Shown here one piece after another: positions 1,477 to 3,129 of a stretch of 64,000 nt of DNA; the first letter of the stretch is position 1; the number at the start of each line of letters is the position of its first letter. Under the pieces are notes generated by a model. That model saw only the letters and a program-made list of their open reading frames with translations. It was not told the DNA's origin and did not search any database. Source of the DNA: Sediminibacterium sp. TEGAF015 (lineage in GTDB: Bacteria > Bacteroidota > Bacteroidia > Chitinophagales > Chitinophagaceae); NCBI RefSeq assembly GCF_025997995.1, contig NZ_AP026683.1, positions 682,501 through 746,500 on the forward strand. The letters are read 5' to 3'. The translations under genes and the position numbers were made by a program.

Positions 1477-3129
1477 ATGAATTTTAGAAGTTATCATGTA
1501 CCCTATCAAATTAATGAGCAATACGCCAAGAAAGCTGCGTATTTCTCAATGGAGTTTGCCATACATCAACCTTTAAAAATATACAGTGGTGGATTGGGAT
1601 ATCTGGCTGGTTCACATTTACGCAGTGCTTATGAATTGCGTCAGAATATGATTGGAATCGGGATTCTTTGGAAATACGGCTATTATGACCAAGCTAGAAA
1701 TCAGGATCAGACGTTACAGGTAACTTTCATGGAAAAGATTTACAGTTTTCTGGAAGATACCGGCATTAAGTTTCAGATATTGATTCATGAACATCCGGTT
1801 TGGGTAAAAGCATATTATTTAAATCCGGAGACATTTAACAGCGCCCCTCTCTTTTTATTAAGCACAGACTTACCTGAAAACGATTATGTTTCTCAAACGA
1901 TAACACATAGATTGTATGATGCAAATGTGGCAACTAAAGTTGCACAGTTTATTCTTTTGGGTGTAGGTGGAGCAAAACTGATAGATGAGCTGGGCTTTAA
2001 CCCTGATGTGTATCACTTAAATGAAGCACACGGAATTTCTTCAGCTTTTTATTTGCTTAATAAATTCAAGAGTGTAGAAAAAGTAAGAGAGCACCTTGTC
2101 TTTACAACCCATACTCCTGAAGAAGCTGGTAACGAAAAGCATGATTTATACTTATGCCACAAAATGAGTTACTTCTGTGGGTTAAGCATTGATGAAGTAA
2201 GAAAATTAACAGGTACGCACGATGACCAGTTTAATCATTCACTTGCTGCTTTGCGTTTTGCCAGAAAAGCAAATGGGGTATCAGCCTTGCATGGCGTGGT
2301 AAGCCGTGAAATGTGGAAGAACTACGAGGGAATCTGTCCAATTACTTCAATTACCAATGCCCAGAACTGGCGCTATTGGGCCGACAAACAAATGTATCGT
2401 GCCATGGAGGAAGGCAACGATGAAGTGTATGACGATCGTAAATCTTTCTTGAAGAAACGTGCATTTGAAATTGTAGCAGACCAAACAGGAAAAGTATTTG
2501 ATCCCAAAGTGTTGACCATTGTATGGGCTAGAAGATTTGCGGGTTATAAACGCGCAGATATGCTTACTTACGACATGGAACGTTTTGAAAAAATGCTGAA
2601 TAATGTTAAATATCCGGTGCAAATTATTTGGGCTGGTAAACCTTATCCGGTAGACTACCCTGCTATTTCGCAATTTAACAATCTAGTGCATTTAAGTAAG
2701 AATTATAAAAATGTAGCAGTGGTAATTGGATATGAATTAGCCTTAAGCAAACGTTTAAAACAAGCAGCAGATGTATGGTTAAATAATCCAAGGGTTCCTC
2801 GAGAAGCATCAGGAACCAGTGGTATGACTGCTGCGATGAATGGTGCAGTAAACTTCTCTACAGATGATGGCTGGATACCAGAATTTGTTAACCATGGCAA
2901 TAATGGTTTTGTGGTTCCCAAAGCTGATTATGCAAACATGACTACTCATGACCAGGATGAATATGATCTAAACAAAGCTTATGAGATTCTGGAACAACAG
3001 ATTATTCCTTTGTATTATGAAGATCATGATACCTGGAGACAAATCATGAAGAATGGTATGCGTGATGTGCGTTTCCAGTTCGATAGTAATCGAATGGCCC
3101 ATGAATATTATGAAATCATGTATAAGTAA
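1477..3129 (+). CDS. glgP: Alpha-glucan phosphorylase-like protein (GT35, short form)
   Basis: A 550-residue member of the short alpha-glucan phosphorylase family. Residues 20-65 carry the family N-terminal block (AAYFSMEFAIH, YSGGLGYLAGSH), and the C-terminal half has WARRFAGYKR and EASGTSGM. Family enzymes release glucose-1-phosphate from glycogen or maltodextrins using a PLP bound to a Lys in the GTSGMK or GTGNMK motif. Here that position reads GTSGMT, so Thr451 (codon 2827-2829) replaces the PLP lysine. The fold assignment is firm. Phosphorylase activity should be treated as uncertain. A strong terminator follows. Confidence 0.85.
   Translation: MNFRSYHVPYQINEQYAKKAAYFSMEFAIHQPLKIYSGGLGYLAGSHLRSAYELRQNMIGIGILWKYGYYDQARNQDQTLQVTFMEKIYSFLEDTGIKFQILIHEHPVWVKAYYLNPETFNSAPLFLLSTDLPENDYVSQTITHRLYDANVATKVAQFILLGVGGAKLIDELGFNPDVYHLNEAHGISSAFYLLNKFKSVEKVREHLVFTTHTPEEAGNEKHDLYLCHKMSYFCGLSIDEVRKLTGTHDDQFNHSLAALRFARKANGVSALHGVVSREMWKNYEGICPITSITNAQNWRYWADKQMYRAMEEGNDEVYDDRKSFLKKRAFEIVADQTGKVFDPKVLTIVWARRFAGYKRADMLTYDMERFEKMLNNVKYPVQIIWAGKPYPVDYPAISQFNNLVHLSKNYKNVAVVIGYELALSKRLKQAADVWLNNPRVPREASGTSGMTAAMNGAVNFSTDDGWIPEFVNHGNNGFVVPKADYANMTTHDQDEYDLNKAYEILEQQIIPLYYEDHDTWRQIMKNGMRDVRFQFDSNRMAHEYYEIMYK

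Follow-up and report, generated by a model that had tools for sequence, protein, structure and literature searches.

The window analysed here, a 64,000-nucleotide stretch of the genome of Sediminibacterium sp. TEGAF015, contains at positions 1477–3129 of the forward strand an intact open reading frame of 550 codons, which starts with ATG and encodes a short GT35-like protein. Judged by profile scores, the 550-aa product belongs to the alpha-glucan family phosphorylases (TIGR02094; 434.1 bits vs a cut-off of 191.7) and also matches PF00343 (56.2 bits vs 27). Its score of 48.9 bits against TIGR02095, the profile of GT5 synthases (GlgA), lies far under the cut-off of 328.45 and does not qualify it as a GlgA. 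Searches by sequence and profile found no other GT35-type protein in the same genome. The closest named relatives, 97% identical, come from Sediminibacterium and related Chitinophagaceae, and the nearest solved structures are those of the Segatella copri phosphorylase (9l6i and 20yr; phmmer, E ~1e-68). The gene directly upstream, on the same strand (444–1406), encodes a 320-aa lipoprotein-like protein with no Pfam match over the cut-off.

The distinguishing feature of the protein lies in the motif EASGTSGMTAAMN (residues 443–455; 2803–2841, forward strand, as for all features below), which matches that of the lysine-containing homologs except at position 451. Codon 451 (2827–2829) is ACT and encodes Thr at the column of the lysine that forms the Schiff base with pyridoxal phosphate (PLP); in the phmmer alignments, the residue opposite Thr451 is the Lys that ends GTSGEK in 9l6i/20yr and GTGNMK in 9maq/9vbl. 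To our knowledge, the PLP lysine is a textbook invariant of glycogen phosphorylases. With Thr451 at the attachment position, the protein lacks the lysine expected of a PLP-dependent glycogen phosphorylase (EC 2.4.1.1), and the absence of this residue from an otherwise intact motif, noted in the initial annotation, is borne out. Other recognizable elements of the active site are the glycine loop GGLG (residues 38–41; 1588–1599), identified by alignment, His212 (2110–2112), the segment from N294 to W301 (2356–2379), and the basic cluster R352-R353...K358 (2530–2550). Hereafter, proteins with Thr or Ser at column 451 are referred to as T-type and those with Lys as K-type.

The replacement extends far beyond the window. 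Threonine occupies position 451 in all 31 loci L001–L031 (two of them being the window's own gene) and in all 80 named loci, which are the top-scoring 80 among 595 confirmed stretches and hence near relatives. Another 20 loci uniformly carry Thr or Ser, and among 138 distinct T-group proteins, more distant short relatives included, 135 have Thr and three have Ser. In an even sample of the class, a T-type gene is present in 49 of 396 genomes (31 of 198 genera), amounting to 52 genes with 52–100% identity, and the residue is Thr or Ser in each of the 50 genes read (all except that of G688 and one of the two in G674). Matches at E ≤1e-80 occur in 45 of 395 genomes of the phylum sample; those in G072, G289, and G297 are proteins of other classes with 38–40% identity, and the G289 protein, when read, has Lys. 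Outside the clade, Lys is found in all 30 long TIGR02094 loci of the phylum, in all six relatives of 545–773 aa (L184–L189), and in all ten K-type proteins from plasmid records. The initial annotation had surmised that related Bacteroidota proteins share the change and proposed an alignment of short GT35 proteins at this column; that alignment has Thr or Ser in each clade member read (at least 138 proteins) and Lys in every relative read from outside the clade. The loss of the lysine is thus confirmed as a fixed trait of one large Bacteroidota clade. A literature search, from which subscription journals were mostly beyond reach, retrieved no publication on a lysine-less GT35 clade. Two T-type paralogs coexist in G003, G157, G248, G674, and G779, and in three of these genomes (G003, G157, and G674) one read copy has Ser; the match in G005 carries an internal TGA.

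A phylogeny built from 53 T-type and 24 K-type sequences, drawn from a larger set and stripped of columns 428 and 451, has a single branch separating all T-type proteins from the rest (SH-aLRT 100; stem length, 1.51), which shows that the lysine loss had one origin; long branches, including the T-type stem and the sister row L184, are flagged in the tree. Because the group labels were assigned with the PLP column known, all counts out of 53 and 24 are to be read as descriptions of the two groups. Comparison of the window gene with seven relatives yielded dN values of 0.025–0.126 against pS values of 0.70–0.92, that is, the T-type gene is under strong purifying selection. Sequencing error and pseudogenization were considered and rejected, because residue 451 is constant in the clade members read (Thr or, rarely, Ser), the frames are open, and dN is far below pS.

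Apart from the anchor, the active site is largely retained. The glycines of GGLG, H212, N294, W301, R353, K358, E443, T447, S448, and G449 are invariant in all 53 T-type proteins; GGLG, His212, Asn294, Trp301, Arg353, Lys358, Glu443, and Thr447 are also present in all 24 K-type proteins, so that the T-type proteins possess the residues characteristic of the family, and Lys388, Ser448, and Gly449 are likewise invariant in both groups. Nearly invariant in the T-type are Y419 (52/53), N436 (52/53), and R352 (50/53, with Lys in the remaining three). We take R352, R353, and K358 to be the equivalents of rabbit K568, R569, and K574, which hold the PLP phosphate and the substrate phosphate, and His212 to be the counterpart of the His in the glucose site of glycogen phosphorylase, whereas N436, Y419, and W301 are presumably neighbors of the PLP ring. 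If these assignments are right, the conserved set includes the residues that hold the PLP phosphate, the substrate phosphate, and glucose in rabbit phosphorylase. Alongside these are fixed differences between the K-type and the T-type, namely, D46 to S, G349 to V, A389 to P, H390 to Y, W478 to F, and Lys451 to Thr/Ser, and further shifts at position 296 (V/I/T to Q, specific to the T-type), position 428 (V/T/I/Y to K), and, in most proteins, position 215 (V to E).

Such coordinated pocket changes, together with the long stem of 1.51, would fit a move of the clade to a different alpha-glucan reaction, for example, that of a sugar-nucleotide-dependent, GT5-like glucosyltransferase, a transglucosylase, or a hydrolase. 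The weak GlgA-type profile similarity (48.9 bits, far under the cut-off) points the same way. Many nucleotide-sugar enzymes of the GT-B fold carry an EX7E motif; the T-type proteins keep its first Glu (E443), but the residue eight positions on, 451, is Thr or Ser, which speaks against a return to nucleotide-sugar chemistry via EX7E. The literature contains the proposal that a proto-GT35 enzyme exchanged a nucleotide for PLP (PMC11046441), which would provide a background for such a change. On balance, we regard this possibility, one of the two raised in the initial annotation, as a surviving rival that is unlikely to be correct.

The AlphaFold2 model, computed from 46 input sequences with ≥81% identity, has a mean pLDDT of 77.7 and a pTM of 0.78, but its active-site loops have pLDDT <50, and the segments under this value include 28–44, 213–222, 354–356, 391–394, and 443–445. 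The top Foldseek match is the phosphorylase 9l6i (query TM 0.79). VIA-align places GT5 synthases just ahead of the nearest phosphorylase (Z 27.4 vs 26.1), an order that says little because the model loops are predicted with low confidence; the modeled likeness to ADP-bound GT5 synthases nevertheless counts among the points in favor of a changed reaction.

The pocket differences include one that mirrors the lost anchor. Position 428, encoded by AAA (2758–2760), is Lys in all 53 T-type proteins and in none of the 24 K-type proteins (Val in 18, Thr in 4, Ile and Tyr in one each), whereas column 451 displays the reverse, with Thr or Ser in 53/53 and Lys in 24/24. The reciprocal pattern also holds in a larger comparison of 138 T-type proteins, all of them with Lys428, with a subset of 15 of the 36 K-type proteins. 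Five columns are Lys in at least 95% of the T-type proteins (322, 326, 358, 388, and 428); among these, 326, 358, and 388 are shared with the K-type, most of whose proteins have His or Arg at 322, leaving 428 as the only column without any K-type lysine, that is, as a wholly new invariant lysine of the clade. There is no indel between 428 and 451, and 9maq has Ile at the former position and Lys at the latter; in the rabbit enzyme, position 428 presumably corresponds to Ile657, 23 residues ahead of Lys680. The new lysine is part of a conserved face E420-S424-K428 (i, i+4, i+8; 2734–2760), with E420 and S424 each present in 52/53 T-type proteins, whereas positions 422, 425, 426, 429, and 431 are variable; the model has a helix at 421–430, ahead of the PLP-site motif. 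The initial annotation had named, as a possible objection to its reading, a nearby lysine that takes over the role of the missing one, and the alignment provides a concrete candidate for it in Lys428. A comparable anchor shift is known from WNK kinases, in which the ATP-binding lysine has moved. Since Lys428 is reciprocal to the lost Lys451, a moved anchor is the most economical idea; that Lys428 serves as the PLP anchor is nonetheless a proposal that we advance tentatively.

What such a protein might do depends on how much of the chemistry rests on the lysine. Borohydride-reduced phosphorylase stays active, so the Schiff base is dispensable for catalysis. In phosphorylase, the acid-base work is performed by the PLP phosphate, and the lysine K646 holds PLP in MalP (PMC11046441). 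Because the PLP phosphate does the chemistry and the lysine anchors, a lysine-less T-type protein could still be a phosphorylase if PLP were held otherwise. Under the scheme we favor, with a confidence somewhat short of even, the T-type protein would be a short alpha-glucan phosphorylase with a changed PLP anchor, for which Lys428 is the candidate: it would still release glucose 1-phosphate from a glycogen-like glucan and bind PLP by means other than the canonical lysine. The phosphate and glucose pockets are retained, Thr/Ser stands in place of the anchor, and Lys428 would hold PLP from the other side, perhaps with the help of Ser424 and Thr451. A moved anchor alone leaves the other pocket changes (D46S, G349V, A389P, H390Y, W478F, V296Q and, in most proteins, V215E) unexplained.

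The same retention of the phosphate-site residues despite the loss of Lys could also be read as a sign that phosphorolysis proceeds with no covalently bound PLP at all, the cofactor either sitting in the retained phosphate pocket through non-covalent binding or being replaced by a second phosphate or by the side chains of Thr/Ser and Lys428. GT4 trehalose phosphorylases share the general fold and are not known to use PLP for phosphorolysis. Consistent with this possibility, GT4 and GT35 both comprise retaining phosphorylases with a front-side mechanism (PMC8950772), and, as noted above, phosphorylase catalysis goes via the PLP phosphate. Yet N436, Y419, and W301, the presumed neighbors of the PLP ring, are kept, and the fixed Lys428 would need another explanation; we therefore consider the absence of covalent PLP rather unlikely. 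The bolder version, in which a large Bacteroidota branch of GT35 phosphorolyses alpha-glucan without any PLP and side chains (Lys428, Thr451) or a second phosphate ion take over the role of its phosphate, appears quite unlikely; if true, it would amount to a reversal of PLP's entry into this fold. Phosphorolysis by whatever means is, in our estimate, probable. We propose the name lysine-less GT35 clade, with a function that is probably phosphorolytic.

The genomic setting bears on whether the protein is an enzyme in the first place. In all 49 class genomes carrying a T-type gene, every PF00343 match (E ≤0.001) falls on that gene; in G038, a genome from outside the class sample, an 874-aa frame that is probably a classical phosphorylase gives a second, weak match. 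The initial annotation had raised a regulatory role as well, and a phosphorylase descendant that binds glucan or regulates but has no catalytic activity would be in line with the disappearance of a lysine present in every K-type protein read and with the lipoprotein gene conserved upstream in Chitinophagaceae. A homolog of this gene was detected in 76 of the 116 loci examined, nearly always immediately preceding the T-type gene. Against a non-catalytic role stand the glucose- and phosphate-site residues, invariant across a deep radiation, the status as sole GT35 in 49/49 sampled carriers, the purifying selection, and the glgP-like neighbors described below for a few genomes, all of which make it improbable.

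Glycogen genes were compared between 39 hand-picked carriers and 11 genomes without TIGR02094 using Fisher tests. GlgB over the cut-off is present in 34/39 carriers vs 5/11 non-carriers (p 0.008), a difference in favor of the phosphorylase reading; full-length GlgA is present in 29/39 vs 5/11 (p 0.14, not significant) and GlgE in 9/39 vs 0/11 (p 0.18). Of the ten carriers that lack full-length GlgA, five have GlgE. The separate full-length GlgA in 29/39 carriers, the window genome included, is a further argument against a changed, GT5-like reaction. The window genome has full-length GlgA, GlgB, and two phosphoglucomutase-type genes; the presence of GlgA eliminates the idea that the T-type protein substitutes there for a missing GlgA-type synthase. 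In five of the 39 carriers (G130, G134, G169, G224, and G252), no GlgA or GlgB over the cut-off and no GlgE match were found; these genomes have weaker GH13 matches in frames of ~670–900 aa. Across the 50 Bacteroidota genomes examined, short frames of ~260–400 aa match the N-terminal half of GlgA alone, even in genomes in which no other glycogen gene was found.

Neighboring genes link some T-type loci to those of short K-type glgP. Phosphoketolase adjoins four T-type genes (G138, G319, G573, and G675), all of family f22, in which nine loci were examined; acetate kinase lies beside two of these four and a UspA-like pair (so labeled by eye, with no Pfam match) at three. On the Pontibacter plasmid, type II GAPDH and DUF1622 genes are found upstream of the T-type gene. 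Correspondingly, short K-type glgP genes have as neighbors phosphoketolase (Criblamydia), type II GAPDH and phosphoglucomutase (Indioceanicola), and DUF1622 (Methylophaga). Within the flanking DNA examined, such neighbors (phosphoketolase, type II GAPDH, DUF1622) are absent from all 80 named Chitinophagaceae loci; the neighbors in Chitinophagaceae, the hypothetical lipoprotein, an Nramp-like transporter, and an isocitrate-dehydrogenase-like gene (the latter two labeled by eye from the first residues), offer no functional hint. The confinement of the phosphoketolase neighborhood to one family, the GlgA association at p 0.14, and the five carriers without GlgA, GlgB, or GlgE weigh against the favored reading of a phosphorylase with a changed anchor, as does the VIA-align order.

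Two T-type genes lie on plasmid records, one of Pontibacter actiniarum and one of Runella rosea. On the Runella rosea plasmid, the T-type gene is followed by one for a PNPOx-like protein (PF12900; L213:9642–10079), and homologs of this protein occur in the vicinity of a further four T-type genes (L235, L239, L248, and L262), of which L248 is close to the Runella gene; because the family is broad, this neighbor was given no weight. The IMG/VR search with the alignment returned no relative. Two unannotated fecal contigs labeled "Bacteriophage sp." (MT835921.1 and MT836851.1), possibly mislabeled bacterial sequences, encode a protein that matches glucan phosphorylase over the full length with ~30% identity; the phage collection also yielded three Salmonella records as matches.

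In records with feature names, T-type genes are labeled simply glgP, and "glycogen phosphorylase" labels in many Bacteroidota thus rest on a protein that lacks the canonical PLP lysine. As a natural, ancient, lysine-less clade whose members are the sole GT35 proteins found in the sampled carriers, the T-type offers a direct test of whether glucan phosphorolysis requires covalent PLP, and bears on the ways in which a cofactor anchor may shift from one helix to another and on whether GT35 can do without PLP.

Among known systems, the GT5 glycogen and starch synthases share with the window protein the GT-B fold, a weak profile match (48.9 bits), and a structural Z of 27, but are only 14–18% identical to it in structural alignments, and the window genome has its own GlgA besides. 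Classical GT35 enzymes, such as E. coli MalP and the rabbit muscle enzyme, have in common with it the EASGT motif, the basic phosphate residues, the glucose-site residues, and, as judged from the model, the fold, whereas they are longer (~800 aa) and bind PLP covalently on the Lys that is replaced by Thr in the window protein. Closer is the K-type alpha-glucan family phosphorylase of Segatella copri (9l6i, 20yr), which has the GT-B fold and the phosphate and glucose motifs and is homologous along the T-type protein except for the first residues of the latter; it differs in its length of 852 aa, with N- and C-terminal parts absent from the window protein, and in having Lys (GTSGEK) at the Thr451 column and Val at 428. 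The short K-type glgP proteins (560–620 aa in Indioceanicola, Methylophaga, Microvirga, and Criblamydia; 545 aa in L184) resemble the T-type in length and share some of its neighbors (phosphoketolase, type II GAPDH, and DUF1622), but are 30–40% identical to the window protein and have the lysine at 451 and none at 428.
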